Shown here in pieces: positions 498 to 32,894 of a stretch of DNA of 64,000 nucleotides. The DNA lies in NCBI GenBank assembly GCA_963169565.1, contig CAUJDI010000056.1, positions 1 through 64,000 on the forward strand, read 5' to 3'. Made by a program: the position numbers and the translations under genes. This DNA comes from Bacillota bacterium (lineage in GTDB: Bacteria; Bacillota; Clostridia; Christensenellales; Aristaeellaceae). Below the pieces are notes generated by a model that saw only the letters and a list, made by a program, of their open reading frames with translations, ran no database searches and was not told where the DNA came from. How positions within the stretch are numbered: position 1 is the first letter of the stretch; each line of letters opens with the position of its first letter.

Positions 498-574
498 GGG
501 ATTATAGCTCAGCTGGCTAGAGCGCCACGTTGACATCGTGGAGGTCGTTGGTTCGAGCCCAATTAATCCCACCA
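498..574 (+). tRNA. tRNA-Val (anticodon GAC), CCA encoded
   Basis: Acceptor GGGATTA/TAATCCC, D-arm GCTCAGCTGGCTAGAGC, anticodon stem CCACG-TTGACAT-CGTGG, T-arm GGTTCGAGCCC, terminal ACCA. Confidence 0.93.
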
Positions 575-576
575 GG
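530..576 (+). repeat. Putative attL: 47-bp direct repeat overlapping the 3' part of tRNA-Val
   Basis: TTGACATCGTGGAGGTCGTTGGTTCGAGCCCAATTAATCCCACCAGG, identical to 32848..32894. Confidence 0.92.
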
Positions 577-620: not shown

Positions 621-944
621 ATATTCGTGCTCAATTTAGCTCTACTACCCCCACAACCACCCCCACCAGCTTTTAGGTCTCTTCCGTCCGTTTTATCATC
701 ATCGAATAAAGTATTCAAACCAAGGATATTTTGTTCATCACATACCCTTGCCACTTAAAACTCTTAGAACACTTAAAACAATCTTCCGTTTATGATGATT
801 GTAGGATAGGCAGGATCGAAAACCGAAAACTCTTTCGCTGCTGGTTCTGGCAAATCCTTAGATTTATTGCCCATATTCATCATCCTCGCAATGATAGTTC
901 ATTTCAGTTTTTGTTCCAGCGCAGAAAAGCATTGTTCCATTTTT

Positions 945-6858: not shown

Positions 6859-9102
6859 TTACTCTAAAGTAAAATCAAAGTAGTTCTGGGAGAGGATCGC
6901 ACCGTCATCCGCAACAATGGACATGTTGATCCTGTACCCCTTGCCGGCTTCTTCCTTTGGCGCTGGCCAGATGATGTGGTCGGCGATCTCCGCTGAATCC
7001 TCCAAAAGGGTCAAGACATAATCGTGCTCCCTGACGGTTCTTCCGGTGCTTTGCTCGATGATCTCCCAGCGGATGCGCGCCCTGTCGACCGTATGATAAT
7101 GGTCATTGATGATCCAGACCCGGGCGGTGAAGCTCTCTCCGGCCTTGAACACTTTCTTCCGGCCCAGCACATAGGGCGACATGCAGGGCTCCAGGGAGAT
7201 CAGCACCGGTGTGTACACCATCTGCATGGCGTCATATGCCTTGTAGGGGCGGCGATAATAGTCCAGCAGTCCGGATCCGATCATCGGGCAGGCGTCGCAC
7301 CAATAGTACAGGTACATCGTGCCTACGGGGTTGTACTTGCGCTGACGGAGAAACTCGATCTGTTCCTTGACCGAGATCGCCTCATACTCCTGGGTGTTAT
7401 TGATGAACTCCTCAATGGAACGGCCGAGCTCGACCTTTGCGAACTTGAAGGTGTTGGAATAGAACAGGCCCCAGTACTCCCAGAGGTCCCAGTCCGTGAT
7501 CGGCCACAGCTTGTCCTCGGGGATGAAGGTTTTCAGCGTTTCCAGGCAGGGCAGGGACTGCGAACCGAACTCCACGATGTTGGGCGGGATGATCTTGTCC
7601 TTCACGTTCGTATCGCCGTCGGAGCAGCAGCCTGTCATGATGTTCATGACGCCTTCGCGGTAATCGCCCAGATGCACCCAGCGTGTGGGATCGACTGACT
7701 TGAGGGTCTCCTTCAGGATCTGGCAGAGACGGAAGTAGTTGTTCGGCTTGTCCGGCAGGAAATAGATCTCCGGCTCCTTGTAGACCGACCACATGCCCAT
7801 GCAGGCGTGGCTGGTGAGCATGCAGCCCATGTCCCGAATCATATCGGACGCGCGCATGATCAGGTCGTCATCGTCACTGACGCAGTAATGCAGTGGAAAG
7901 ACCTGCCACATCAGAAGCCCGAGCTCGTCGCAGATGCGGTATACGCCATCCTTCTCCACGTGGCTGCCGATACGGATCGCATTGATGTTCATCCGGATCA
8001 TCTTGCTGAAATCCGCCTGCCACATCTCCTCGTTGGCCTCGCTCATCCAGAGGCTGGAAATATAGCGCATGCCCCGCAGGAAGATGCGTTTCCCGTTCAG
8101 GTACCACTTGCCGTACTTCTCGTCGTACTCAATATCCTTGATGCCAAAGCGCATCGTTACTTCGTCTTTTGCCATGCGAAGCCTCAGGGAATACAGGTGC
8201 GGGAAACCATGATCCCAGGTCCACCACAGCTTCGCGTCCTTCACGGTGACGACGAACTTGAATGTCGTATTGCCAGGCGGGAGTACAAGCTCCTTCCTGC
8301 GGCGATGAAGCTCGTCGCCTGCAAAATTGGCTGGCGAAATCAATGCTTCGATCGCGGTGGAAACGGTAACCCCGGTCGTATTGCTGACCGTGACATCCAG
8401 ACAGACCATCGCCTCGCCGGTCGGCTTGTCCTTTCCGTCGCCCTGCCAGTCTTTCCTGAGTACCGTCTTGGTGGTGATCTTGCAGTACGCGATGAAGATC
8501 TCGGGGCGGATGACCAGCGTCACTTCATCCCAGATCCCGGCCGAATTGCCGTCCTGCCTGAAGGACGTCATCGAACCCGGACGGTGCATCGCATCGATCA
8601 TGTGCCCCTTGATCTGCGTGATGGCCTTGGCCTGATGGCGCTGGTATTTCTCCGACAGGGGGGTATCCCTGTCCATGCCCGCGTTGATGTACTCGGTTTC
8701 GTCCCGGGGCGCGCCGTCCCTGACGACAAGCACGTTGTTTTCGCTCCGCAGAATGCCGGTGACGTCAAACTCGAAGGGATTGAAGATTCCCTCGTGTGAT
8801 CCCAGGAACACGTCGTTGAGCCAGACGTCGGCATAATAATCGACCGCGCCGAAGCGGAGGAACACCTGATCCTGCGGATTTCCTGAATGAAAATCGAAGG
8901 AGGTGCGAAACCAGACCGTTCCAAAATAATCCCCGATCTCGGTCAAGTACCAATTGTTCGGTACTTTGATCATTTTCCATGCGGTGACGTCCGCGTCGGA
9001 CGCCTGGAAGCCAAGTTCCTCGCCCTGCAGCGTTTCGTCGATCCTGTACAACCAAGACCCTGAGAGATCTATCTTCTGTCTGCCCTCATGAAGCATAATC
9101 AA
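6859..9102 (-). CDS. Glycoside hydrolase family 2-like protein (atypical KE acid/base motif)
   Basis: 747 aa; jelly-roll N-terminus (FDVTGILRSENNVLVVRDGA), TIM barrel NGKRIFLRGMRYIS, ACMGMWSVYKEPE, NIVEFGSQS. Confidence 0.83.
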   Translation of the reverse strand: MIMLHEGRQKIDLSGSWLYRIDETLQGEELGFQASDADVTAWKMIKVPNNWYLTEIGDYFGTVWFRTSFDFHSGNPQDQVFLRFGAVDYYADVWLNDVFLGSHEGIFNPFEFDVTGILRSENNVLVVRDGAPRDETEYINAGMDRDTPLSEKYQRHQAKAITQIKGHMIDAMHRPGSMTSFRQDGNSAGIWDEVTLVIRPEIFIAYCKITTKTVLRKDWQGDGKDKPTGEAMVCLDVTVSNTTGVTVSTAIEALISPANFAGDELHRRRKELVLPPGNTTFKFVVTVKDAKLWWTWDHGFPHLYSLRLRMAKDEVTMRFGIKDIEYDEKYGKWYLNGKRIFLRGMRYISSLWMSEANEEMWQADFSKMIRMNINAIRIGSHVEKDGVYRICDELGLLMWQVFPLHYCVSDDDDLIMRASDMIRDMGCMLTSHACMGMWSVYKEPEIYFLPDKPNNYFRLCQILKETLKSVDPTRWVHLGDYREGVMNIMTGCCSDGDTNVKDKIIPPNIVEFGSQSLPCLETLKTFIPEDKLWPITDWDLWEYWGLFYSNTFKFAKVELGRSIEEFINNTQEYEAISVKEQIEFLRQRKYNPVGTMYLYYWCDACPMIGSGLLDYYRRPYKAYDAMQMVYTPVLISLEPCMSPYVLGRKKVFKAGESFTARVWIINDHYHTVDRARIRWEIIEQSTGRTVREHDYVLTLLEDSAEIADHIIWPAPKEEAGKGYRINMSIVADDGAILSQNYFDFTLE

Positions 9103-9128: not shown

Positions 9129-11408
9129 TCAGTTGCATGCTTTGATGACTGTCTGGTTGGACGAAAGACGATTTCCTTCGGGATCCCTCGCATCCATCCT
9201 GATGACGTACTCGCCAATGTAATCCATAGGAATGATCCACTCGATCATGTCCAGCACCTTCGCAGAATCAGGCTTTAGCAGGACGTTGCATCGATTCCCA
9301 TACAATGCTTCATCGCTGCCCTTCCGGCAGATCTGCCAGGAAATTTCGGCCTGTACTTCATGGAAATGATCATTGTTCACCCAAACCTTGCCGATGAACT
9401 TCTCACCGCGGTTGTACTTTTTGTCCCTCCCGATCAGATAAGGCGTCCGATTCCATTCCAGGCTGACCAGAACCTGCGTATAGACCGATTTCATCGAATC
9501 ATACACCTGATAGGGTTCCCTGTAATAATCCAGCAGACCGGAGCCCATGATCGGGCAGGCATCGCTCCAGTAGTACAGATACATGGATGCGACAGGCCGG
9601 TACTTACGCTGCCGCAGGACCTCGATCTGCTCCTTGACCACCAAGGCCTCGTAGCGCTGGGAGTTGTCAATGAACTCCTCCAGGGAATGGCCAAGCTCCA
9701 CGCGTCCGCGCTTGAACTGGTTGCGGTAAAACAGGCCCCAGTATTCCCAGACATCCCAGTCGATCGGCCAGAGCTTGTCCACAGGGATGAATTTCTTCAG
9801 GCTTTTCAGGCAAGGGATCGAATCGGCTCCGAACTCAACGATATTCGGCGCGAACTCTGTCTTTAGAATATCTTTGTCCCCGTCCTGGCAGGAGCCGATC
9901 ATGATGTTCTGGACGCCTTCGCGGTAATCGCCTTTGTGGATCCAGCGGATGGGATCGACCGAGCCCAAGGTCTCCTTGAGCACTTCACAGAGCCTGAAAT
10001 AAACGTTGGGCATGTTGGGAAGCGCATAGATCTCAGGTTCCTTGTAGACAGACCACATTCCCATGCAGGCATGGTTGGTAAGCATATATCCCATGTCGCG
10101 CATCATGTCAGACGCCCGGTCGATCACCTCGTCAGAGTCGTCGATGACGTAGTGCAGCGGGAACACCTGCCACATCAGCAGCCCCATCTCATCGCAGAGT
10201 TTGTAGAAACCGTCCTTCTCCACGTGGCTGCCGATACGGATGGAATTGATGTCCATGTCAAGCATTTTTTTGAGGTCCGCTCGCCACATCTCCTCGTTGG
10301 CCTCGCTCATCCAGAGGCTTGAGATATACCGCATGCCCCTTAAAAAGATCTTCTTGCCGTTGAGGTACCATTGTCCGTCCGCGTCGGTCTGGACTTCCTT
10401 GATACCGATCGTGAGCGAAACCCTGTCCGCTTCGAGGCTGAAGTCTGCAGCGTAGAGGTGCGGAAAGCCGTGGTCCCAGGTCCACCACAGCCTGACATCT
10501 TCAAGCGTGACAAACAGCTTGAAGACGTTGTCCCCAGGCTGTACGACCACGTTTCTGGTGATGGCGGCGGACTTTCCGCCTTCAAAGTTTGAGGGCTTCA
10601 CATGAAGGGCGATCGCGGTCTTTACAGCATTCTTTTCCCTGTTGTGTACATATACATCAAACGCGGCCAGTCCGGTGCCGTCCTGTTTGTCCTGCTGATC
10701 CCCCAGCCAGTCCTTTTTATAACCGATCTTCGTATAGGACTTGACATAGCTGATGTGGATATCCGGTTTTACTACGAGCGTCACCGACCCCCATATACCG
10801 CCCGAATTGCCGTCCTGACGGAAGGAAGTCATCGCGCCGGGGCGGTGCATCGCCTCCACCATGTGCCCCTTGATCTGGGTGATGCCCTTGGACTGGTGGA
10901 ATTTATAAGGGTCTGACAGCGGTGTGGCTTCCTTGTCCGTAAGGATATAATCGGTTTTGTCCTTCGGCGCGCTGTCACGCAGGACGATGACGTTTTTTCT
11001 GTCATGGTGGATGAAGTCCGTGACGTCATACTCGAAACTGTTGAACATCCCCTCATGGTATCCAAGATACTGGCCGTTGACCCACACCTCGCTGATGTAA
11101 TCAACACCTTCAAAGCGAAGATATAGATTGCTGCCCTTCAGTTCCCCGGGTACGTCAAACTCCCTGAAATACCAGATGGTACCAAAATAGTCGCCGATCT
11201 CTTCCGTCAGATACCAGTTGTGCGGGACCTTGATGTCGCGCCACGCGGAACGATCCTGGGACTCCAGATAATAACTCTGCCGTTTGCCGACATCGTTCTG
11301 ATCGAGCCTGTATTTCCACACTCCGTCCAGAACAAGCCGAGGCCTGTCGTATAATTCACAGTACATATTGACCGCTCCTATCAACGTTTCTTCCGGATCA
11401 GAGCTCAA
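9129..11408 (-). CDS. Glycoside hydrolase family 2-like protein (paralog of upstream gene product)
   Basis: 759 aa; collinear with the 6859..9102 product; ACMGMWSVYKEPE, NIVEFGADS. Confidence 0.83.
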   Translation of the reverse strand: MSSDPEETLIGAVNMYCELYDRPRLVLDGVWKYRLDQNDVGKRQSYYLESQDRSAWRDIKVPHNWYLTEEIGDYFGTIWYFREFDVPGELKGSNLYLRFEGVDYISEVWVNGQYLGYHEGMFNSFEYDVTDFIHHDRKNVIVLRDSAPKDKTDYILTDKEATPLSDPYKFHQSKGITQIKGHMVEAMHRPGAMTSFRQDGNSGGIWGSVTLVVKPDIHISYVKSYTKIGYKKDWLGDQQDKQDGTGLAAFDVYVHNREKNAVKTAIALHVKPSNFEGGKSAAITRNVVVQPGDNVFKLFVTLEDVRLWWTWDHGFPHLYAADFSLEADRVSLTIGIKEVQTDADGQWYLNGKKIFLRGMRYISSLWMSEANEEMWRADLKKMLDMDINSIRIGSHVEKDGFYKLCDEMGLLMWQVFPLHYVIDDSDEVIDRASDMMRDMGYMLTNHACMGMWSVYKEPEIYALPNMPNVYFRLCEVLKETLGSVDPIRWIHKGDYREGVQNIMIGSCQDGDKDILKTEFAPNIVEFGADSIPCLKSLKKFIPVDKLWPIDWDVWEYWGLFYRNQFKRGRVELGHSLEEFIDNSQRYEALVVKEQIEVLRQRKYRPVASMYLYYWSDACPIMGSGLLDYYREPYQVYDSMKSVYTQVLVSLEWNRTPYLIGRDKKYNRGEKFIGKVWVNNDHFHEVQAEISWQICRKGSDEALYGNRCNVLLKPDSAKVLDMIEWIIPMDYIGEYVIRMDARDPEGNRLSSNQTVIKACN

Positions 11409-12166: not shown

Positions 12167-13951
12167 GTGGTGATCCATACACTCAAAGGCAGGCTGATAC
12201 TAACCTTTACACTCATCCTGGCACTGGCCGCGGTGCTTACATTTCTTCTCTATTCTGATTATTCAAGGGCGCTGGTCGAGCGCAATCTTGTCAGCGCGAC
12301 ATCGAGCAGCATCCGCTTCATCATGGACAATGTGGACCGGAAGCTTGATGAGTGCAGGAATCTTTCTGACTGGATCTTCGTCAACCGCTACATCGACAAG
12401 ATGCTTGTGCGGAATTACGGGAGCCCCATCAACAATTTGGACCGCGATGTTTCCGCCGCGATGAAAACCATCAGTGACCGAATCACAAGCTCCACGATCA
12501 GCGATGACGTTCTGGGGATCATCATTCAAGGAGACAACGGCGTCATCCTGAGCAGCGGAGAAGAGGCATACTATACGTCCCTGGATACCCTGTCCTCCCA
12601 GGACTGGGTGCTTGCTTCCAAAAATCGGATGACCTTCTCCTGGGTAGGGTTGAAGCCGAACCTTTCCCGCCAGCACGCCAGCGGATTTTGCCTCCCCATC
12701 GCACGAGCTGTCATCTACTCGGACACCCGAAAACAGATCGGATGGCAATACATCAGCTTTTCCGCCAGCGTGATCGGCAGTGTTCTTCTGGATCTGCGGC
12801 AACCGAAAGGCTATGACCTCTTTCTGGTCGACAAGACCGGCAATGTGATTTACAGCAACCGTGCCGGTCTCCTGGGCACTGTCCTAAGCAACGAGCAAGC
12901 GCTTAAAAAGCTTGGCGAGGATCCTGGGGACACATATTTTCCCGTCACCTTTGAGGGCAGCAAGGCGCTCGCGTTTACCGCCCGCTCTTCCTATGGGAGT
13001 TTTTACGCGATGCAGTTTGTGGATGATTCCCTTCTTGAAAGCGAAAAGGCAGTCGCATCCCGCGACGCGCTTTGGAACATCCTGATCATCATTGGACTTG
13101 GCTCGGTGCTGGCTGCAATGATCACCAGCACGCTCACCCGCCCGATCGGCTTGCTGATGAAACGCATGCAGGCCATTGCGAGCGGTGATTTTGAGCAAGT
13201 CAAGGAAATCGAGGGTGATCACGAACTGGGCAGGCTTGGCAAGGGAATGAACCAAATGGCGGCCGAACTTCAGGAGCTCATCCTGAAGGCCAAGGAAGAT
13301 GAGAAGAAAAAGAGCGTTCTGGAGTTCAAGGTTCTGCAGAACCAGATCAATCCTCACTTCGTCTACAATGTGCTCAACTCAGTCAAGATGATGGCGCTCA
13401 TTCAGAAGTCGACCGGGATCTACAACATGGTGACCTCGCTTGGGGTTCTGCTCAAGGAGGTCTCAAAAGGCGCCTCAGATCTTATTCCACTTAAGGAAGA
13501 GCTATACTTGCTTGATAAATACCTCGATATCCAGATCGTACGCCGGAATGGACTGCTCAAATCGGTCTTCGACGTATCCGAGGATTCGCTTTCCTGTCTG
13601 ATTCCGAAGTTCACGCTTCAGCCGATCGTTGAAAACGCCATCGTGCACGGATTGTCGGACAAGCGTGGTATGGGGATCATCGAAATCAGGGGATGGCTGG
13701 AAAAGGATATGCTTTGGATCACGATCCGCGACAACGGCGTCGGGATCCCACCGGAGAAACTGCCCACGCTGCTGGAGGAGAGAGAGGAAAGCAGGGGGCT
13801 ATACTACAATGGCGTTGGATTGTCCAATGTCGCGCAGAGACTCCGGATGGTTTTCAGCGGCGACTGCTCACTTGACTTTTCCAGCGAGCTTGGAGGGTAT
13901 ACGCTCGTCAGTCTCCGTATTCCTGTAACGAGAAAGGTGGACGAGGCATGA
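12167..13951 (+). CDS. Sensor histidine kinase (YesM-like, HAMP + His_kinase + HATPase)
   Basis: NQINPHFVYNVLNSVKMM and C-terminal NGVGLSNVAQRLRM. Confidence 0.92.
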   Translation: MVIHTLKGRLILTFTLILALAAVLTFLLYSDYSRALVERNLVSATSSSIRFIMDNVDRKLDECRNLSDWIFVNRYIDKMLVRNYGSPINNLDRDVSAAMKTISDRITSSTISDDVLGIIIQGDNGVILSSGEEAYYTSLDTLSSQDWVLASKNRMTFSWVGLKPNLSRQHASGFCLPIARAVIYSDTRKQIGWQYISFSASVIGSVLLDLRQPKGYDLFLVDKTGNVIYSNRAGLLGTVLSNEQALKKLGEDPGDTYFPVTFEGSKALAFTARSSYGSFYAMQFVDDSLLESEKAVASRDALWNILIIIGLGSVLAAMITSTLTRPIGLLMKRMQAIASGDFEQVKEIEGDHELGRLGKGMNQMAAELQELILKAKEDEKKKSVLEFKVLQNQINPHFVYNVLNSVKMMALIQKSTGIYNMVTSLGVLLKEVSKGASDLIPLKEELYLLDKYLDIQIVRRNGLLKSVFDVSEDSLSCLIPKFTLQPIVENAIVHGLSDKRGMGIIEIRGWLEKDMLWITIRDNGVGIPPEKLPTLLEEREESRGLYYNGVGLSNVAQRLRMVFSGDCSLDFSSELGGYTLVSLRIPVTRKVDEA

Positions 13952-15516
13952 TCCGTGTCCTGCTGGTTGATGACGAGGCGCTTGTCCGCGTGGGCCTCAA
14001 ATCTCTCGTCCCGTGGAACGAACTCGGCTACGAAGTCGTCGGCGAAGCGGCCGGCGGGGAAATCGCCCTGACGCTTCTGGATACGCTGCGTCCGCAGCTG
14101 ATGATCACCGACATCGTCATGCCGCGGCTCAGCGGGACGGAACTGATCCGGATAGCAAAGAAAAAATACCCTGAACTGATCGTCATCGCCCTTTCAGGCT
14201 ACAACGAATACGACCTGGTCCGTGAAGCAATGAAAAACGGCGCCACCGATTATCTGCTCAAGCTTAACCTCAGCAGCGAATCGCTTTCGGAGCTGCTGAC
14301 GGAGCTGCGCCAGGAACATGGCCTCCCGGATGAACCTGCGGATGGGAACGGCGATAAGGACAGCAAGCTTGCGCTCCGGCATCAGATCAAGCAGGCCATC
14401 GGTTTTGAAGGCGGGAGCGGAGGGCGGGAGATCATTCTGCCTGTGAACGTGCAGGGAAACCTGATGACGCTTGGATTTATCAACAGCAACCTGTATACGG
14501 GCATGGAGCGTTACTCGCAGCAGGATGCCAAGCACCTTGAAATGACGATCGTGGATATTCTGGAGGAGATCCTTGCCAATTTCTATCCAGGGTGCGCGCT
14601 TGTGTGGTGCGGTGGCGCGTTCGTCCTGCTCTTGTTCGCCGAATCCTTCGAGCGAGGGCAGCTTGACTTGATGGGCAAGGCGATGCTGCAGATGCTCAAG
14701 ACCTATGTCAACATCGACTCAGCAGTCGCCTTCAGCGACCCTTTCCGTTCCCCTTTGGAGATCGAACCCGGATTCAAGCAGGCCAGGCACGCGATACGCC
14801 GAATTTTCAGGAGCGGTTATCACACCGTTCATTTTGCCGATGATGCGGATCCCCAGCCTTCACATACGGAAAGAGATCCGCTTCTTGTTGAGAGCCTCAG
14901 CCGCGCGCTGATCCTCCAGGATACGGAGGTGCAGCAGACAGCATTCCGGAAGCTTGAGGAGTACATCCCATCGTTTGCCCAGCGCCGCGACGCCTGCGAT
15001 TGGGTCAACCAGATCGTGTGCATGTGTGACCTGGCGCTTGGGGAAGGATTCGCAGCGTTCAGGCAGGGATCATCGCTTGCACTGGAACAGATCTACCTGT
15101 TCAGGACGGCGGATGAACTTGCCGGATGGTTCAGACAGTATGCGGAGCTGGTGACAGATTATCAGGGCGTGGAAAGCAGGAAGCAAACACACCCGCTGAT
15201 CAGAAAGGCGAAACGGTACGTACAGGAGCACATCAGCGAACAGATCGCGCTGAACGACGTCGCTGCCTTTCTGGGCATCAGCGCGGGGTACTTCTCAACG
15301 CTGTTTGCGAAGTCTGTCGGAACCAACTTCAAGGAGTACGTCAACCAGGCGAAGATTGAACGCGCCAAGGAAATCCTGCGCGAGGGCGGCCACAGGATCT
15401 ATGAGACCGCATACCTGCTGGGCTTCGACAACGTATGTTATTTCAACAAACTATTTAAGAAACAGGCGGGCTGTACACCCGGGCAATACCAGAGCTACGC
15501 GGAAAGAGAACCGTAA
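13948..15516 (+). CDS. Response regulator with AraC-type HTH (YesN-like)
   Basis: REC domain VLLVDDEALVRVGLKSL...ITDIVMP; AraC HTH AYLLGFDNVCYFNKLFKKQAGCTPGQYQ. Confidence 0.95.
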   Translation: MIRVLLVDDEALVRVGLKSLVPWNELGYEVVGEAAGGEIALTLLDTLRPQLMITDIVMPRLSGTELIRIAKKKYPELIVIALSGYNEYDLVREAMKNGATDYLLKLNLSSESLSELLTELRQEHGLPDEPADGNGDKDSKLALRHQIKQAIGFEGGSGGREIILPVNVQGNLMTLGFINSNLYTGMERYSQQDAKHLEMTIVDILEEILANFYPGCALVWCGGAFVLLLFAESFERGQLDLMGKAMLQMLKTYVNIDSAVAFSDPFRSPLEIEPGFKQARHAIRRIFRSGYHTVHFADDADPQPSHTERDPLLVESLSRALILQDTEVQQTAFRKLEEYIPSFAQRRDACDWVNQIVCMCDLALGEGFAAFRQGSSLALEQIYLFRTADELAGWFRQYAELVTDYQGVESRKQTHPLIRKAKRYVQEHISEQIALNDVAAFLGISAGYFSTLFAKSVGTNFKEYVNQAKIERAKEILREGGHRIYETAYLLGFDNVCYFNKLFKKQAGCTPGQYQSYAEREP

Positions 15517-15853
15517 ATGGGCTTCATCGAGGGATGAGGTCAGCCAGTGTAAGGAGAATACGGCAAGTACAGGTGGTCAGCCTCATCATGCGCTTTCCGG
15601 CCGCTTGATACCGCGGCATCGCCAATACCTCCTCTTCCGGGATCATCAGTCAGCTGTACTTGCCCTTCAATCTGCAAAAAGTACAAGAAAAATGAAAATG
15701 CGACATATTGCTTGCGAAGCTGCGAATGGATTTCGGTAATATCGTCAAGGTATCCGTATTCTGTGCATTGATTGCACGGCTCCCGCGGTTACAATAGATA
15801 TACAAATCGGTCAATAAATGTACATTATTGCTAAGAAACGGAGGCGGCAGAGA

Positions 15854-16282
15854 ATGGTTCTATATTCAGGGGAAGGAACGGGCCGCGTACTGGTATTGGG
15901 GCTCAAGAGAGGCGATCTCCTTCTGGAAAGCATCGTCAAGGCGCTTAAGGATGCAAACATCCGGGATGCGATCATCACCGGCGCGATCGGTTCGCTGCAA
16001 AAGGCAGTGCTCCATAGGGTGATCGGGACCGGGCGCGAACCGGAAGACGAGTTCATTACGCTGGAGCGTCCGATGGAGTTGGCCTCCCTTCAAGGTCTGG
16101 TCGTGGACGGCGAACCCCACTTCCATATGGTCGTTTCAGATACGGATTCCGCCTACACGGGTCATCTGGAGAATGGGACCACTGTGCTGTACCTGACGGA
16201 AATCACCTTGCTGGAGGTCAGCGGCCTTTCGCTTGCCCGCCGCAAAAATGAGGACAACATCGCGACGCTCACCCCGCGCTGA
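15854..16282 (+). CDS. PCC/DUF296 (PPC domain) protein, second paralog
   Basis: PHFHMVVSDTDSAYTGHLENGTTVLYLTEITL; ATG with GGAGGCGG upstream. Confidence 0.82.
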   Translation: MVLYSGEGTGRVLVLGLKRGDLLLESIVKALKDANIRDAIITGAIGSLQKAVLHRVIGTGREPEDEFITLERPMELASLQGLVVDGEPHFHMVVSDTDSAYTGHLENGTTVLYLTEITLLEVSGLSLARRKNEDNIATLTPR

Positions 16283-16334: not shown

Positions 16335-17660
16335 ATGAAAGGATCCTGGAGAAAACTCGCTTCCATGGTGCTGGCTATGCTGATGCTGACCTTGCTGGCC
16401 CTGCCGTCAGTCGGTCTGGCCGCGGAAAAGATTGAGATCCGGCTGATGACCCCGTGGACAGCCGGTTCCGCTGCCTATGACCAGATCGAGGCACTGCTGG
16501 CCAGCTGGGTAGAAAAGCATCCCAATGTGACGATCGTCCACGACGCGCTGCCCACTGCCGACGTCCGCACCAAGCTGACCGTCGAAATGGCGGCCGGCAA
16601 TCCCCCTGACGTGTCCTGGAGCCCGCTGAGCTATGCCCGCGAGTTCATCAAGGACAACAAGATCATCGACTGGTCCGGCGTTTTTAAAGATCCGCGCTAT
16701 CCCGAATTCAAGCAGTGGTTCTCGGAGACCTCGCTGAACTTCGCCACCACGCTGGATGGAAAGATCATGCTGGCTCCGCAGGAAGGCTCCATCGACGGCC
16801 TGTACTACAACAAGGACCTGTTTGCTCAGTACGGCTGGAAAGTGCCCACCACGTTTGACGAGCTGCTCGCATTGGTACCTCAGACAAAAGCCCAGGGGAT
16901 CGCGACCCTGGTGACCGGCGGCAAAGACGGCCGCTTTGCATGGATGGCTTCTGCCTTGCTGGCGCGCGCAGCCGGCTTGAAAAACTTCACAGCGCTCACG
17001 CTGGGTGACAACAAGACCAGCTGGGATGATCCCGCCTTCGGATTTGTCACCATGATGACCAAATTCAAGGAACTGGTCGATGCGGGCGCATTCCCCAACG
17101 GCGTGCTGGGCATGAGCGCGACGGAAGCTGACCAGCTCTTCGCCCGCGGCGAGTCCGCGATGTATTATGAAGGTGCCTGGAAGCCTGGCAACTTCAACAC
17201 CGCCGGCGGCCCTGAATTCCTGGCTAAACTCGGCCGTGTCGACTTCCCCGTGATGACAGACTGCCCAGATGGCGATGCGAATGTCCGCGTCGGCGGCAAC
17301 ATTACCGGTTTCTTCGTCGCTGCCGGACTGTCTGAGGAAAAGCAGGACCTGTGCATCCAGCTGGCCCGCGACATCTGCAGCCCTGAGTTCAATACCCCGA
17401 TCATGGAAAAAGGCGGCTTCGTGTATGCCGGCAAGACGGATTATGACGCGAGCAAGGTCTCCAGTGTCATGAACGAGCTGATCCAGGCTTACCGCACCGC
17501 CCCCGCCTACATCCCCTCGATGGATACCATCGCGCCCCCGGCCGTGGACCTGGCGATCAAGCGGACGGCCATGCCGGGTCTCATTACCGGCGAGTATGAC
17601 GTGAACGCGGCCGTCGCAGAGGTTCAGAAAGCGGCTGTGGATTATGTGAACGCCCAGTAA
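16335..17660 (+). CDS. Extracellular sugar-binding protein (ABC transporter)
   Basis: Signal peptide; SBP1-type sequence LYYNKDLFAQYGWKVPTTFDEL. Confidence 0.93.
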   Translation: MKGSWRKLASMVLAMLMLTLLALPSVGLAAEKIEIRLMTPWTAGSAAYDQIEALLASWVEKHPNVTIVHDALPTADVRTKLTVEMAAGNPPDVSWSPLSYAREFIKDNKIIDWSGVFKDPRYPEFKQWFSETSLNFATTLDGKIMLAPQEGSIDGLYYNKDLFAQYGWKVPTTFDELLALVPQTKAQGIATLVTGGKDGRFAWMASALLARAAGLKNFTALTLGDNKTSWDDPAFGFVTMMTKFKELVDAGAFPNGVLGMSATEADQLFARGESAMYYEGAWKPGNFNTAGGPEFLAKLGRVDFPVMTDCPDGDANVRVGGNITGFFVAAGLSEEKQDLCIQLARDICSPEFNTPIMEKGGFVYAGKTDYDASKVSSVMNELIQAYRTAPAYIPSMDTIAPPAVDLAIKRTAMPGLITGEYDVNAAVAEVQKAAVDYVNAQ

Positions 17661-17738: not shown

Positions 17739-18626
17739 ATGGCCGGCAGGAAAAAGGGTCCGGACACGATGCCGAAAGCGGAGACAAACGCTCAGCTGAT
17801 GATCGGCAAGAAGCGCACGAAGGTCATGATCTACATCTCACTGACCTTTTTTGCGCTGCTGGTGTTTCTTCCGCTTCTGTGGCTTTTCTTCTCGTCTCTG
17901 AAGTCTCAGGCTGACCTGACGATGAACACCTGGGGACCGCCCAAAGACTGGCTCTGGAATAATTATATCAAGGCCTGGAAAGGCTCCAAAATCGACCGTT
18001 ACCTGCTCAACAGCATGTATGTCACCGCGCTCACGATCGTCATCACGGTCCTTGCGTGCACACCCATCAGCTTTGTGCTGGCCCGGTATCGCTTCCGATT
18101 CAAGAAGCTGCTGTATTACGTGGCGATCGCGGGCATGATGATCCCCATCCATTCGGCGGTCATCCCCCTGTACATGATGGTCGGTGACCTGGACAAGTAC
18201 AACAACCTCAATATGCTGGCCTTTATCTATGCCGCGTTCCGGATACCGGTCTCCATCTTCATCCTTGAGGGGTTTATGAGCAGCATACCCAGGGACCTGG
18301 AGGAATGCGCCTTTATCGACGGATGTTCGACTACCAAGCTATTCCTGAAAATCATCGTGCCACTGTCTAGGGATGGGATCGTCACCATCTCCGTTCTGGC
18401 GGTGCTGGCCTGCTGGAATGAGCTGCTTGTTGCCATGCTGATCCTCAGCAAGCCCGCGCTCAAGACGCTGCCGATCGGGCTGATGGGTTTCATTACGGAA
18501 TATAACTCCGAGTATACGCAATTGGCAGCAGGCATCATGATCGCGATCGTTCCCAGCATCTTATTCTATCTCATCGCTCAGGAGAAAATTGAGAAGGGCA
18601 TGATTGCCGGCTCGATCAAGGGGTAA
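17739..18626 (+). CDS. Carbohydrate ABC transporter permease (MalG type)
   Basis: ECAFIDGCSTTKLFLKIIVPLSRDGI EAA loop, TM segments. Confidence 0.92.
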   Translation: MAGRKKGPDTMPKAETNAQLMIGKKRTKVMIYISLTFFALLVFLPLLWLFFSSLKSQADLTMNTWGPPKDWLWNNYIKAWKGSKIDRYLLNSMYVTALTIVITVLACTPISFVLARYRFRFKKLLYYVAIAGMMIPIHSAVIPLYMMVGDLDKYNNLNMLAFIYAAFRIPVSIFILEGFMSSIPRDLEECAFIDGCSTTKLFLKIIVPLSRDGIVTISVLAVLACWNELLVAMLILSKPALKTLPIGLMGFITEYNSEYTQLAAGIMIAIVPSILFYLIAQEKIEKGMIAGSIKG

Positions 18627-18654
18627 GAGCCCTCGGATAGAAAGGTTTTATTGC

Positions 18655-19533
18655 ATGCGAATCACCAAGAGCAATCGAGGCGTCATACTGTTGTTCCTGG
18701 TTCCCGGCTTCGCGCTCTATCTTTATTTGGTGCTGTACCCCATCGTACAGTCGGCAGTTCTTAGCCTGTATAGGTGGGATACCCTGGCTTCCAAGCGCTT
18801 CATCGGATTTGGCAATTATGTATCGGTCTTCAACTCATCCCTGTTTTGGAAGTCGATGACCAATTCGATCATATTCATGCTGGCCACGACGCTGCTTCAG
18901 GTCGTTATCGGCTTTTTCCTGGGCTACCTTGTCTACCTGCAGCTGAAGGGGTACCGTTTCTATAAAACGATGCTCTTTATCCCAACGGTCCTTCCCTCTG
19001 TCGCAGTAGGCTTTATCTGGAACTATATCTACAGCCCCAGTATGGGCCTGCTCAAACCGCTTATGACAGCTCTGGGGCTCAAGGCCAGCTACATTCCCCC
19101 TCTTTCCGATCCGACGCTTGCGCTGCTGGCGATCATCATCGCGCAGACATGGAACTCCTGCGGTATCCAGGTGATCCTGTTCAACTCGGGCTTTATGAAC
19201 ATGCCCGGCGAGGTCATCGAGAGCGCGACGCTGGACGGCGCAAGCGGCTTTGGGATGATCCGGCATATGATCATCCCCCTGAGCTGGGACATCATCAAGA
19301 TGGTGATCATTCTGCAGCTCATCGGTGCGCTGCGGGCATTCGACCTTGTATACGTCATGACAGGAGGCGGTCCGAACCACGCGACTGAACTGCTGCCCAT
19401 GCACCTGTTTGTCAATGCGTTTGAGAATTTCAACCTTGGATACGGAAACGTGGTCGCGATGGTGATCTTTGTATTGGCTATGCTGATAACGATCTTTATG
19501 CGCAAACTGATGGAAAGGGACAGTTTGTATTAA
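18655..19533 (+). CDS. Sugar ABC transporter permease (MalF type)
   Basis: ESATLDGASGFGMIRHMIIPLSWDII EAA loop; ATG at 18655 after the preceding stop. Confidence 0.92.
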   Translation: MRITKSNRGVILLFLVPGFALYLYLVLYPIVQSAVLSLYRWDTLASKRFIGFGNYVSVFNSSLFWKSMTNSIIFMLATTLLQVVIGFFLGYLVYLQLKGYRFYKTMLFIPTVLPSVAVGFIWNYIYSPSMGLLKPLMTALGLKASYIPPLSDPTLALLAIIIAQTWNSCGIQVILFNSGFMNMPGEVIESATLDGASGFGMIRHMIIPLSWDIIKMVIILQLIGALRAFDLVYVMTGGGPNHATELLPMHLFVNAFENFNLGYGNVVAMVIFVLAMLITIFMRKLMERDSLY

Positions 19534-19571: not shown

Positions 19572-20273
19572 ATGACACGCGAGGAGCTCATCACAGAAAT
19601 CAGGAAATTCAGGAACGCCGATCTTTCCGACGGCATGGACGCTCTGGGGCTTGTGGACAAGGGCACGATGAACCAGAAGATGCGTCCGCTCCGCCCGGGG
19701 ATGGAATTCAAGGGTTATGCCTACACCGTGAAGCTGCTGCCCAAACAGGACGGGGTCGTCTCCTGCACCAGCGTCGAGCAGTGGCGGGAGGAGCTGGGCA
19801 AGGGCTGCGGGGATATTTACCGCTTTGTGGACGGCATCACGGAGAAAACAGCAAAGGATATGGTCGTCGTGATCGATATGGGAGGCGTGACCGGCGGAGT
19901 GTGGGGGTCTGAGATCGCAATGAATACCATGATCCGCGGCATCTCCGGCGCGGTGATCGACGGCGGCTGCAGGGATTCCTATGAAACCAACCTGGAGAAG
20001 GCGAACGTTTTCTGCACGCGCCGGACCTTTGTACATGCTTATGGCCGCGTCACCTTCGGCGGGACCAATCTGCCCGTCAACTGTGCCGGCGTGCTGGTCA
20101 AGGCCGGTGACATCGTCTGCGCGGATGATGACGGCGTGCTGGTGATCCCCTACGAACGCGCGGAAGAGGTGTTGATGTTTGCGAGGATGCAGCTTGAGGA
20201 TGACATCAAGACGCGCGGCGAACACTACAGGAAGCTGGGCTTCAAGCCCGATGAGACGCTGAGCAGGCTGTAA
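19572..20273 (+). CDS. RraA-like family protein (HMG/CHA aldolase / demethylmenaquinone methyltransferase-like fold)
   Basis: AVIDGGCRDSYE and CADDDGVLVIP motifs. Confidence 0.85.
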   Translation: MTREELITEIRKFRNADLSDGMDALGLVDKGTMNQKMRPLRPGMEFKGYAYTVKLLPKQDGVVSCTSVEQWREELGKGCGDIYRFVDGITEKTAKDMVVVIDMGGVTGGVWGSEIAMNTMIRGISGAVIDGGCRDSYETNLEKANVFCTRRTFVHAYGRVTFGGTNLPVNCAGVLVKAGDIVCADDDGVLVIPYERAEEVLMFARMQLEDDIKTRGEHYRKLGFKPDETLSRL

Positions 20274-20298: not shown

Positions 20299-21333
20299 AT
20301 GATTGCATTGCAGAAAATCGCCCAAGGGGAGGGGGGGGAGTTCCGCGACGTCCATGTCCCTTCTCCGGGCCCCAGGGATCTCCTGGTCAAGGTCCGCGCA
20401 ACCGCGCTGTGCAAGTCGGACGTGGAAGTTCTGGAGTGGACCCCGCTTGTCGCCGCAGGCAACCTGCCGCTGCCGCTGACAATGGGCCATGAGTTTGCAG
20501 GAGAGGTCGTAACGGTCGGCGACCTGGTCCGCCAGTTCAAAGTCGGTGACCATGTGGCGGGCGAGACACATATCCCGTGCGAAAAATGCCTCGAGTGCCG
20601 TACGGACCACAAGCACATCTGCTCCGGCGGCATGGGGGTCCTTGGACGCAACGTCAACGGCAGCTTTGCCGAGTATATCCTGCTGCCAGAAATTTCCGCC
20701 ATCAGGGTCAGGAAGGAAGCGCCGTTTGAAGAGATGGCCCTTCTTGAACCTCTGGGCACCGCCCTGCACGCGCTGCAGAAGGCGCAGCCCTCCGGAAAGA
20801 CCGTTGCCATCCTTGGCGTGGGGACCATTGGCCTGATGGCCTGTGAAATGGCGCGCGCGCTGGGTGCGACAAGGGTCATCGCGCTGGACATCAACAAAGA
20901 CCGCCTGGCATACAGCCTCGAACTGGGCGCGGACGTCGCCCTGGACGGGCGGGAGGGTGATTTTGTGTCTCGCGCCCGTGAAATGACCCATGGATCGGGT
21001 GTCGACGCGGTCGTGGATTTCACAGGAAGCCCGCGGGTCATCAACCAGGCGATCGACGCACTCAGGACCGCCGGGACGCTTGTTCAGGTTGGAATGGTCG
21101 GCGCCGAGATGACGATCCCCCAATACATGTACAGGGTCGTTTACCGCGAACTGCTCCTGACGGGCATTTTCGGCAGGCACATGTACAAGACCTGGGAACT
21201 GCTCAACGCCTTGCTCGAAACCGGGAAGATCAGGCCCAGCCGCTACGTGGCCAAGGTGATGCCGCTTTCCGAGTACAAAACGGCATGGGAGCAATTTGAT
21301 ACCTACAACGGCCGCGCAGTGATGATTCCATGA
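20299..21333 (+). CDS. Zinc-dependent alcohol/polyol dehydrogenase (MDR family)
   Basis: GHEFAGEVVTVG, structural zinc CEKCLECRTDHKHIC, GVGTIGLMACEMARALGA. Confidence 0.93.
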   Translation: MIALQKIAQGEGGEFRDVHVPSPGPRDLLVKVRATALCKSDVEVLEWTPLVAAGNLPLPLTMGHEFAGEVVTVGDLVRQFKVGDHVAGETHIPCEKCLECRTDHKHICSGGMGVLGRNVNGSFAEYILLPEISAIRVRKEAPFEEMALLEPLGTALHALQKAQPSGKTVAILGVGTIGLMACEMARALGATRVIALDINKDRLAYSLELGADVALDGREGDFVSRAREMTHGSGVDAVVDFTGSPRVINQAIDALRTAGTLVQVGMVGAEMTIPQYMYRVVYRELLLTGIFGRHMYKTWELLNALLETGKIRPSRYVAKVMPLSEYKTAWEQFDTYNGRAVMIP

Positions 21334-21356
21334 ACAGGGAAGGAGACCGGAAACAG

Positions 21357-22244
21357 ATGGATATCGATCAGTTCCCAAAGTCGGTTGAGATTTTTGAAGT
21401 AGGTCCGCGGGACGGGCTGCAGCCCGAACCGGTGTTTGTTCCTACCGAAAAGAAGATCGAGCTGGTGGACCGGCTCACGGATGCGGGATGCCCCCGCATC
21501 GAGGTCACATCCTTTGTCCACCCCAAATGGGTGCCCCAGATGGCTGACGCCAAAGAGGTCATCGCCGGCATCCGGCAGAAGCCCGGCGTCGTATACAGCG
21601 CACTGATCCCCAATCTCAGGGGGCTTGAGCTCGCAATCGCCGCAGGTCTTTCAGAAGTGGTGACCATCATGAGCACTTCTGAGAGCCACAATATGAAGAA
21701 CCTCAACATGACCAGGCAGCAGTCCCTTGAACAGGTCAGGGAGATCAACCGGGTCGCCCGCGAGAACGGCGTTCGTGTGCGCAGTTACATCGCGACGGTA
21801 TTCGGCTGCCCGATCGAAGGGGCCATGGATCCACAGATTGCGCTGGATACGGCCCTGCGGCTGGAGGAGTACGGATCCTATGAGATCTCCCTGGGCGATA
21901 CGACCGGCATGGCGAATCCGATCAGCGCTTACCGGATCCCGAAGATGATCCGAGAGAAACTGACCAAAGCCCGCCTGGCCGTGCATTACCACAAATACCA
22001 CGGCATGGAATTTGCCAACAACCTTGCCTCGCTGGAAGCCGGGATCACGATCTTCGACGGCGCGGCCGGCGGACTGGGCGGCTGTCCCTATGCGCCGGGC
22101 GCAAAGGGGAACTGCCAGACGGAGATCCTGGTGGAGATGTTCCACCGCATGGGCATCCAAACGGGGATCGACGAGGAAAAGATCCGCGAGACCGGCGCTT
22201 TCGCGCAGACGCTCAGCACGCTGCTGCACCAGAAGTGCCAGTAA
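21357..22244 (+). CDS. Hydroxymethylglutaryl-CoA lyase
   Basis: EVGPRDGLQPEPVFVPTEKKIELVDRL, SLGDTTGMANP, GGLGGCPYAPGAKGN. Confidence 0.92.
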   Translation: MDIDQFPKSVEIFEVGPRDGLQPEPVFVPTEKKIELVDRLTDAGCPRIEVTSFVHPKWVPQMADAKEVIAGIRQKPGVVYSALIPNLRGLELAIAAGLSEVVTIMSTSESHNMKNLNMTRQQSLEQVREINRVARENGVRVRSYIATVFGCPIEGAMDPQIALDTALRLEEYGSYEISLGDTTGMANPISAYRIPKMIREKLTKARLAVHYHKYHGMEFANNLASLEAGITIFDGAAGGLGGCPYAPGAKGNCQTEILVEMFHRMGIQTGIDEEKIRETGAFAQTLSTLLHQKCQ

Positions 22245-22260
22245 GAAGGGAGAAAAGCTC

Positions 22261-23571
22261 ATGGAAGAGCTAAAGATCGCCCAGGAATATCAGCGCGGCG
22301 AAATCAAGAGCCAGAACCTTGAGGAAGTCGTATTTGACAGGATCTATGGCAGGGACGCAAGCAAACTGAGAGATGCCTGTGACCTTGCGGCGAAGATCCG
22401 CTGTGATGCCGTACAGCAGGAGACCGGCGTGGAGATGCCGATGATCCGAAGCACGCGCATCGACAACTGCTCCCTGGCGGCAGGCGGCACGCGCCTGCTG
22501 GCCGGCATCGAGGGGAAGATCGGCGGTGCAGTCATCCCGATGGGGATCGTCGGACCCGTCCGCATCAAGGGACAATACGTCGACGAAAGCGTCTACATCC
22601 CCCTGGCAACCAATGAGGCAGCCTTGGTGGCGGGCATGCAGCGCGGCACGAAGGCTATCAACCTGGCAGGCGGCCTGCGCACCCTGGTGCACTTTGACGG
22701 CATGACCAGGGCGCCGCTGATCGAGGCCCCCGACATCGCGGAGGCAAGGCAGCTGATCGACCGGATCAAAACGGACACAGCATTGTTTGAGACGCTGCGC
22801 GGCTATTCCCGAGACCCCTTTGTCCGCCTGGACGCGATCGATCCGTATCAGCTGGGGACAAAGGTTTTCCTGCGCCTCACGTTCAAGACTGGAGACGCGA
22901 TGGGCATGAACGGGGTGACAAAGGCCTCGGCCGACATCACGCGCGCCCTGCTGGGCATGCTCCCCGGCTGGCGGCTCATCACCATCAGTTCCAACCTGTG
23001 CACCGATAAGAAGGCGGCCCATATCAACGTTTTGAACGGCCGGGGCAAGTCGGTCCAGACAGAGGTCTTCCTCTCTGATGAGGTGCTCAAAACAGTGTTC
23101 AAGCAGGGGGTTTGCGGGCGGAGCGTCGAAAAGACCGTCTTCCACAAATGCTACCTGGGTTCCGGCTTAAGCGGCACAATCGGCGGCTTCAACGTCAACG
23201 CGGCCAACGCCATTGCCGCATTCTACGCGGCGACCGGCCAGGACCTGGCCCACGTCGTTTCCTCCTCCAACATCTTCGTACAGGCGGACGCGACAGACGA
23301 CGGCGTACACTTCATGGTCAGCCTGCCCTGCCTGGAGCTGGCGACCATCGGCGGGGGAACAATGTTCGGAACGGCTCGCGAAGCCCTGCGCCTGATCGGA
23401 TGCGACGGCTTCGGCAGCAACGTGGACGACAACAAGAACGTCCTGAGGCTAGCGGAGATCGCGGCGGCGGCGGTCACATCACTGGACCTGAACACGGCCT
23501 GCGCGCAGGCGGCAGGATATGAAATGGCGGACTCGCACGTGAAGCTTGCGCGCGGTGAGGTCGATAAGTGA
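22261..23571 (+). CDS. Hydroxymethylglutaryl-CoA reductase, class I-like motifs
   Basis: PLATNEAALVAGMQRG, GDAMGMNGVTKAS, ISSNLCTDKKAAHINVLNGRGKSV, ATGQDLAHVVSSSN, IGGGT, SHVKLARGE. Confidence 0.93.
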   Translation: MEELKIAQEYQRGEIKSQNLEEVVFDRIYGRDASKLRDACDLAAKIRCDAVQQETGVEMPMIRSTRIDNCSLAAGGTRLLAGIEGKIGGAVIPMGIVGPVRIKGQYVDESVYIPLATNEAALVAGMQRGTKAINLAGGLRTLVHFDGMTRAPLIEAPDIAEARQLIDRIKTDTALFETLRGYSRDPFVRLDAIDPYQLGTKVFLRLTFKTGDAMGMNGVTKASADITRALLGMLPGWRLITISSNLCTDKKAAHINVLNGRGKSVQTEVFLSDEVLKTVFKQGVCGRSVEKTVFHKCYLGSGLSGTIGGFNVNAANAIAAFYAATGQDLAHVVSSSNIFVQADATDDGVHFMVSLPCLELATIGGGTMFGTAREALRLIGCDGFGSNVDDNKNVLRLAEIAAAAVTSLDLNTACAQAAGYEMADSHVKLARGEVDK

Positions 23572-30726: not shown

Positions 30727-31440
30727 ATGGCACGGAAAGAAAAGCAAGGGATAGGAAAGCGAATAGAGGAACTACGAAAGCGAAAAGAGCTTACCCAGGA
30801 CGAGTTGGCAAAAGCGCTTAATATGACACGATCAAACCTCAATATGTGGGAATTAGGTGAGCGTGAGCTGAAGGCCAGAGACTTACAAGATATTGCTGAT
30901 TATTTCGGCGTAACAACAGATTATCTGATATATGGAAGGGAAACCCAGAACATTGACATATACCGCGCAACAGGCCTTTCACAGTCTGCTATTGAAACCC
31001 TCAGGAAATTTAAGGACAGCGATATAGCCCTTGGCAGCACAGAAAGCGCTGGGAAGTGCGACGCATTGAGCAAGGCGCTTTCCAACAGCGATTTGCTCAA
31101 TGTCTTGACTTCGTTGATGCTGGTTCAGCAGGGGGAGTCGGGATATTATGAGAGTTCCTATCTATCAAGTGATAGAAACTTTTATAATGTCGAATGTTCC
31201 CCGGATAGTTTCAGTGCGTTTTTATCCTTTCGGTTGCAGTTGATCATCCATGCAATAAGAACGGGCGATCAATCGATCTTCGCTTCATACGCCCCAGCAA
31301 ATCAGAGACCAAAGGATTTTGCAAAGCGTTATGGAAGACAAAACTCAATAGAAAGGCTAAAAAAACAACTTAATGCCTTAGAACAGGAAGAAGCAACGTG
31401 CGAAGAGGAAGGTGCACAAGATGGCAAAGAGAGCAAATAA
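30727..31440 (+). CDS. XRE-family HTH repressor-like regulator
   Basis: GKRIEELRKRKELTQDELAKALNMTRSNLNMWELGERELK; RBS AGGAGG. Confidence 0.92.
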   Translation: MARKEKQGIGKRIEELRKRKELTQDELAKALNMTRSNLNMWELGERELKARDLQDIADYFGVTTDYLIYGRETQNIDIYRATGLSQSAIETLRKFKDSDIALGSTESAGKCDALSKALSNSDLLNVLTSLMLVQQGESGYYESSYLSSDRNFYNVECSPDSFSAFLSFRLQLIIHAIRTGDQSIFASYAPANQRPKDFAKRYGRQNSIERLKKQLNALEQEEATCEEEGAQDGKESK

Positions 31441-32596
31441 TGAAGGAACGATCCGGCAGCGCCCTGATGGCACATGGGAAGGCCGCTTTTCTGTTGGGTA
31501 TACCGCACAAGGCAAGCGCGTAAGAAGAAGCGTCTACGGTGGTTCCCAGGAGGAAGTAACCAGGAAATTGCGCGAAGTTCTGCGACAGCTGGACAGGGGA
31601 GAATACGCCGACCCATCAGAGATCACTGTGGTAAACTGGCTTGATACCTGGTTTAATGTGTACGGCAAGCCGCGCTGGCGGGACAGCACCGCGGCAGAAC
31701 ACTACAGGAATATTAAGAACAACCTGAAGCCCAGCCTGGGACGGTACAAGCTGCAGAAACTCAGACCGGACCATATCCAGGCGTACATCAACCATCAGGT
31801 CGAAATAGGCCGCGCACCTGCCAGCATCAGAAAGCAGCTGGAGCCGCTCAAGGCCTCCCTTAAACAGGCAGTCATCAATAACCTCATCATAAAGGACCCT
31901 TCATTGCATCTGTCAATGCCAGCAATGTCCACTCGGGAGATTGAACACCTGACGATTGAGGAGCAGCAGAAGTTGGTGGAGGCATTGCCGCAAACCACTG
32001 CAGGCCGGGCATTGCGATTCATTCTGGGCACTGGATTGAGGGCTTCAGAGCTCTGCGGTCTGCGTTGGCAGGATATTAACGGCGACTCCTTCACCATCAG
32101 ACAGGCCGCGCAGCGTGTCCTCGACCTTAGTGATCATTCTGGCGGACCGAAATACAAGCTCTCGGTCTCTCCTCCCAAGACAAAGGCCGGGCGGAGGACC
32201 GTCCCGCTCATGGAAAGGATGCTCACCCTGCTGGCAGAGCAAAAAGAGGAGCAAATGAAACAACGCCTCCGTGCCGGGTCCGCCTGGGCTGGAAGAATCC
32301 CTGGTCATGGTGAAACCTATGTATTTGCGAATGAACTGGGCAGCGCTATTGACCGCTGCAACCTGGGACGGGTCCTGCGCATTAGCCTGGACACTGCAGG
32401 TGTGAAGCGAGTGGGGGTCCATGCCCTGAGACACACCTTCGCCACCAATTGCATCAGGGCTGGTGTAGATGTCAGGACACTCTCAGAAATGATCGGACAT
32501 ACAAAAGTGGCCTTTACACTGCAGCAGTATGTCCATACTAACCTGACCACGATGCGGGCAGCGATGAGCGCGGTTGAGGGTATGAGAGGGTTTTAA
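31421..32596 (+). CDS. int: Tyrosine-type site-specific integrase
   Basis: LGTGLRASELCGLRW, HALRHTFATNCIRAGVDVRTLSEMIGHTKVAFTLQQYVHT. Confidence 0.96.
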   Translation: MAKRANNEGTIRQRPDGTWEGRFSVGYTAQGKRVRRSVYGGSQEEVTRKLREVLRQLDRGEYADPSEITVVNWLDTWFNVYGKPRWRDSTAAEHYRNIKNNLKPSLGRYKLQKLRPDHIQAYINHQVEIGRAPASIRKQLEPLKASLKQAVINNLIIKDPSLHLSMPAMSTREIEHLTIEEQQKLVEALPQTTAGRALRFILGTGLRASELCGLRWQDINGDSFTIRQAAQRVLDLSDHSGGPKYKLSVSPPKTKAGRRTVPLMERMLTLLAEQKEEQMKQRLRAGSAWAGRIPGHGETYVFANELGSAIDRCNLGRVLRISLDTAGVKRVGVHALRHTFATNCIRAGVDVRTLSEMIGHTKVAFTLQQYVHTNLTTMRAAMSAVEGMRGF

Positions 32597-32847
32597 GTGT
32601 TTTAAGTGGTAGGTTGATACATTTTAACGTTTTTAGTGGACAGTATAGAAGCATTATCCAGTATTATGTATAGATACACTACTGTTTGTATTTTTATTCT
32701 TCCCTCTGCCACCCCCATTACTACCCCCACAACCACCCCCACCGCGATAATACAGGGTAGTACGCAATAATATCAATTACTCGACTTCCGTTGATTTACC
32801 TACACTAATTAGTACTCACTAAAACAGGAAAACAGCTTAAAACGGCA

Positions 32848-32894
32848 TTGACATCGTGGAGGTCGTTGGTTCGAGCCCAATTAATCCCACCAGG
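32848..32894 (+). repeat. Putative attR: 47-bp direct repeat (3' tRNA-Val fragment)
   Basis: Identical to 530..576; no 5' tRNA half. Confidence 0.92.

Follow-up and report, generated by a model that had tools for sequence, protein, structure and literature searches.

In this work we have analysed a stretch of 64,000 nucleotides (the window) from contig CAUJDI010000056.1 of a Bacillota bacterium of the family Aristaeellaceae, and our results indicate that an operon within it probably serves to degrade mevalonate, or a precursor from which mevalonate is set free, by means of a class I HMG-CoA reductase (HMGR) run backwards and an HMG-CoA lyase (HMGL). As part of the same explanation, and with the same degree of confidence, we consider the cassette to be a catabolic module that has spread horizontally. 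The direction of the pathway, its use of NAD+ and its substrate are what we infer from the genes and their distribution.

HMGL and HMGR close an operon in which they are preceded by a PCC protein, a sugar-type ABC importer, an RraA-like aldolase and a zinc alcohol dehydrogenase (ZnADH) (Table 1). The HMGR ORF has its first ATG at 22261 and ends at 23571, while position 21357 is an ATG internal to the HMGL ORF (MDIDQF), which starts at 21330. That a lyase gene adjoins a class I-like reductase gene had been predicted from the letters of the DNA, and profile scores now confirm both identities. Judged by its sequence, the HMGR is a divergent class I enzyme, since it scores 285 bits with TIGR00533 (class I, NADPH), under the equivalog cut-off of 441.8, and only 26.9 bits with TIGR00532 (class II degradative). 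Membership of class II, for which the degradative cut-off is 259.95, was ruled out by the latter score. The nearest solved structures are 6hr7, 8ecg and 1dq8, plant and human enzymes being among them. The four catalytic residues of the original prediction are present, E119, K250, D328 and H426 aligning to human E559, K691, D767 and H866, and all the aligned HMG- or catalysis-related residues that we tested are retained (R150, S243, D249, K250, K251, N316, D328 and H426). Likewise, the lyase carries the GGCPYA motif noted earlier, together with the RD, E, HxH and GN motifs. Both enzymes also have changes of their own: in the window and in all 25 other cassette lyases the Asp of HDT, after the metal-binding HxH, is replaced by Lys, Arg or Gln and the GxA that follows HDT is GxE, and the cassette reductases have fixed N118, G218 and N313.

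A YesM/YesN-type kinase and regulator stand upstream of the PCC-to-HMGR operon. A divergent cluster on the minus strand encodes two GH2 proteins, two TIM-barrel proteins, an oxidoreductase and, judging from the sequences, a second sugar-type importer. An iron-type alcohol dehydrogenase (window 23923-25203) lies downstream of the cassette, ahead of a nickel-dependent lactate racemase, LarA (25268-26536; 588 bits, cut-off 460); both are on the same element as the cassette, and neither is conserved with it at other loci.

Table 1. Features of the HMGL-HMGR operon, its surroundings and the element that carries it (window coordinates).
Feature	Position	Strand	Evidence or remark
Left attachment repeat, 3' end of tRNA-Val(gac) (gene 498-574, ARAGORN)	530..576	+	47-bp exact direct repeat
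25-bp repeat near the left end, possible integrase arm site	643..667	+	second copy at 32719-32743
GH2 family protein a	6859..9102	-	Pfam GH2 domains, VEFGS motif; homologues adjoin the cassette elsewhere
GH2 family protein b	9129..11408	-	Pfam GH2 domains, VEFGS motif; 57% identical to a
YesM-type sensor histidine kinase	12167..13951	+	profile match; homologue in locus L027
Response regulator with AraC-type DNA-binding domain	13948..15516	+	profile match
PCC/DUF296 protein, recurrent cassette partner	15818..16282	+	PF03479, 66 bits; 7 loci including the window
ABC solute-binding protein (CUT1 sugar type)	16335..17660	+	profile matches
ABC permease	17739..18626	+	profile matches
ABC permease	18652..19533	+	profile matches
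RraA-like aldolase/decarboxylase, GGCRD motif retained	19572..20273	+	PF03737, 94.8 bits; closest solved relative 3noj
ZnADH, threonine-3-dehydrogenase-like	20299..21333	+	284 bits, cut-off 380
HMGL	21330..22244	+	NCBIfam PRK05692, 364.7 bits, cut-off 246
Class I HMGR, D185-P186-F187 at the cofactor site	22261..23571	+	PF00368, 280.5 bits, cut-off 27
Tyrosine integrase of the element	31412..32596	+	PF00589, 84.5 bits; just inside the right repeat
Right attachment repeat	32848..32894	+	47-bp exact direct repeat with 530-576

The cassette is sporadic. Five genomes with reductases 66-76% identical were found in samples of the host's class and phylum, and when the GTDB genome collection was scanned, 27 loci with orthologous reductases (64-77% identity) emerged, a set that overlaps with these five. 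They belong to Bacillota (among them the cultivated species Ruminiclostridium cellobioparum), Spirochaetota, Planctomycetota and one Desulfuromonadaceae bin. HMGL adjoins HMGR in 25 of these 27 other loci, one of the two exceptions beginning at a contig end, so the pairing is not due to chance. The distances of the two proteins co-vary (Mantel r 0.84, reached by 0 of 2000 permutations), to which shared ancestry contributes. The reductase was found in none of 59 sampled relatives from the host's genus, family and order, and among 393 genomes sampled from the phylum of a spirochaete carrier the sole match was the carrier itself. The companions are less constant: within the limits set by the many short contigs, which affect the GH2 counts as well, 15 of the 27 loci have ZnADH (49% or more) and 8 have RraA (56% or more), and some cassettes have neither. 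Some spirochaete cassettes (L034, L041, L044) have in place of ZnADH an SDR, for which no model scored over its cut-off. The importers vary too. Some cassettes have the same or other CUT1 systems, and others have likely organic-acid importers belonging to unrelated families, namely TRAP (L052), TctABC (L046), LIV-type ABC (L036) and AEC-type (L037/L038), types that were named by reading the sequences and of which the AEC type alone was confirmed by Pfam.

We propose that the importer takes up mevalonate or a mevalonate-releasing conjugate, that HMGR would convert mevalonate, CoA and two NAD(P)+ (NAD+ being predicted) to HMG-CoA, and that HMGL would cleave HMG-CoA to acetyl-CoA and acetoacetate. 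RraA and GH2 probably work on the precursor. The acetoacetate may leave the cell or be reduced, and ZnADH (the SDR in some spirochaete cassettes) is a candidate for the enzyme that would turn it into 3-hydroxybutyrate and so dispose of electrons; threonine is 2-amino-3-hydroxybutyrate, which links a threonine-3-dehydrogenase-like enzyme to this compound. We set aside the classical use of acetoacetate through activation by a CoA-transferase, a route that the host probably does not have: PF01144 is missing there and in 18 of the 26 carriers. Acetoacetate decarboxylase is likewise missing in the host, and in 23 of the 26.

What is the compound that these bacteria take up? Cassettes whose importer is of an organic-acid type agree with free mevalonate; the window, whose cassette is accompanied on its element by GH2 and a sugar importer, agrees with a conjugate. 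No natural mevalonate supply for the carrier organisms is documented in the literature searched, and our search for papers on bacterial mevalonate degradation and on glycosides of mevalonate or HMG was without usable result. The original prediction had favoured a plant HMG- or mevalonyl-glycoside, which GH2 would cleave and whose acid part would pass to HMGR and HMGL. As the main substrate, such a glycoside is compatible with our best explanation and seems to us rather unlikely. The GH2 pair lies on the same element, homologues of these two proteins adjoin the cassette in four other loci (L029, L042, L045, L047), the window has a CUT1 importer, and the carriers include plant-fibre degraders such as R. 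cellobioparum. Nevertheless, most of the 27 loci, many of them short, are without GH2 in the DNA examined, and no glycosidase was recognised in the cassettes with likely organic-acid importers (L052, L046, L036, L037/L038). An HMG ester is unlikely to be the main substrate, because the annotated cassette genes include no recognisable esterase or HMG-activating CoA enzyme and HMG acid needs no reductase. Apiosidase-like proteins occur near the cassette in L025, L048 (PF13204) and L040 (by clustering), and in L047 (2-1604) a pair of proteins, UPF0261/Tm-1-like (by eye) and PEP_hydrolase-like, lies upstream of GH2-HMGL-HMGR.

Since both enzymes carry subfamily-specific residues, some of them near the active site, they might instead act on a mevalonate analogue, a 3-hydroxy-3-methyl-branched acid or aldehyde made from a branched sugar or glycoside by ZnADH and RraA. 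ZnADH or SDR, and RraA, are indeed frequent companions, and a sugar importer, GH2, an apiosidase-like protein, a 2-hydroxyacid dehydrogenase and a glycerate kinase are found nearby in several loci. We regard this as improbable, because the retention of all the tested HMGR residues speaks against a different substrate, as do the loci that consist of HMGL-HMGR and a likely organic-acid importer alone.

Catabolism is by far the best reading of the gene pair. This rests on the lack of an HMG-CoA synthase, on the lack of a mevalonate kinase over the cut-off, on the presence of IspH and on the HMG-CoA lyase reaction, which runs toward cleavage. HMG-CoA synthase was found in 0 of the 26 carrier genomes, host included, by a search that was positive in 7 control genomes, and a mevalonate kinase over the cut-off was likewise found in 0 of the 26; the host is 89.9% complete and the other carriers are mostly draft bins, so that single absences are weak. 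Twenty of the 26, the host among them, have the MEP-route enzyme IspH. The host has a single HMGR, and each carrier has none but the cassette kind. The catabolic direction had been predicted from the absence of synthase and mevalonate kinase in the neighbourhood, an absence that we can now extend to the genomes. By contrast, the class I HMGR of Streptomyces adjoins HMG-CoA synthase, phosphomevalonate kinase, mvaD and fni, the HMGR of a DPANN relative (L062) is next to HMG-CoA synthase in a biosynthetic setting, and no HMGL was found near the archaeal HMGR loci. Although characterised class I HMGRs are mostly biosynthetic (PMC13370337, PMC13001223), it is so improbable that the cassette HMGR makes mevalonate for isoprenoids that, as far as these searches go, we reject this role, and with it membership of a mevalonate pathway, on account of the missing synthase and kinase, the host IspH and the constant company of HMG-CoA lyase.

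In human HMGR the NADPH contacts include Ser626, Arg627 and Phe628 (PMC7503714), to which D185-P186-F187 aligns without gaps in a profile alignment. All readable cassette HMGRs have D-P-F where the NADPH-using class I enzymes have Ser-Arg; archaeal HMGRs have mostly T or S followed by R, K or S, and those of Streptomyces and Sinorhizobium have S-R-F. Because D-P replaces S/T-R, and because an Asp near the ribose is associated with NAD use in class II enzymes (PMC12292504), the cassette HMGRs are predicted to use NAD(H). D-P-F is also found at this site in an archaeal HMGR, that of Candidatus Alkanophaga (L078). The S-R-F enzyme of Sinorhizobium meliloti pMl1 (L126, 4872-6116) lies in an operon with acyl-CoA carboxylase, biotin carboxylase and MmgE-PrpD genes.

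A phylogeny of the reductase had been proposed as a check on the original prediction. In our maximum-likelihood tree the 26 cassette HMGRs included form one group (support 100/100), with spirochaete, clostridial and planctomycete sequences interleaved; the DPANN archaeal enzymes L049 and L050 are its sister (98/91) and L062 comes next (100/99). The branches are long, so the exact donor is uncertain. Our current hypothesis, offered tentatively as a serious possibility that falls somewhat short of being probable, is that a class I HMGR lineage derived from DPANN archaea switched to NAD+, took the oxidative direction and spread between phyla in a mevalonate-fermenting cassette that would yield acetate and acetoacetate or 3-hydroxybutyrate.

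The operon sits in an integrated element of 32.3 kb that spans the whole cluster and is bounded by the 47-bp tRNA-Val repeat. With its integrase and the flanking att repeat at a tRNA gene, this is a tRNA-integrated mobile element, and the earlier suggestion of a mobile element thus has support at the base level from the tRNA-Val gene, the 47-bp repeat, the tyrosine integrase and the 25-bp repeat. The part of the element that we scanned with conjugation or packaging genes in mind gave only DUF3987, CHC2 zinc-finger and HTH proteins. At the same tRNA-Val, three sister species (L114, L115, L118) carry a related integrase, so there is no clean empty site, and these integrases suggest a hot spot at which elements with different cargo integrate. 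Just outside the element, a low-GC gene (about 0.39; window 33136-36282) encodes PLD, ResIII helicase and DUF3427 domains and possibly serves defence. Carriage of the cassette by viruses was rejected, the viral contigs containing no relative, and plasmid relatives are distant (38% or less).

Class I HMG-CoA reductase is the target of the statins, and bacterial breakdown of mevalonate is known with a class II reductase, in the MvaA/MvaB system of Pseudomonas mevalonii. Class I enzymes have been described as NADPH-only (PMC13370337, PMC13001223), and the P. mevalonii reductase is listed as NADH-only (PMC13370337). A clade that lacks the NADPH site and stands beside HMGL would show that class I has also evolved a role in breakdown, and the cassette HMGRs are natural candidates for NADH-linked class I reductases. 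Our reading would also correct the annotation of lone HMGR genes that are labelled as isoprenoid synthesis, and would indicate turnover of mevalonate by bacteria of anoxic habitats.

As in the mvaAB system of P. mevalonii, a reductase that would convert mevalonate to HMG-CoA is beside a lyase that would yield acetyl-CoA and acetoacetate, and NAD(H) use, established there, is predicted here. Unlike in that class II system, the HMGR of the cassette is of class I. It is borne by an integrated element, its companions are RraA, ZnADH and importers that vary, and its carriers are Clostridia, spirochaetes and other bacteria. With the archaeal and eukaryotic class I HMGRs (6hr7, 1dq8) it shares the family, the class I motifs including the CTDKK region and the four catalytic residues, but it differs from them in having D-P for S/T-R, a catabolic neighbourhood and a score below the TIGR00533 cut-off. 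The cassette lyases, which score over the PRK05692 cut-off, have the RD, E, HxH, GGCPYA and GN motifs of 1ydo and 1ydn, but where these have HDT and GxA the cassette lyases have H followed by K, R or Q, and GxE. Finally, the DPANN HMGRs (L049, L050, L062) share N118, A120, S425 and other residues with the cassette HMGRs, to which they are sister in the tree, although they have neither the D-P motif nor an HMGL neighbour.
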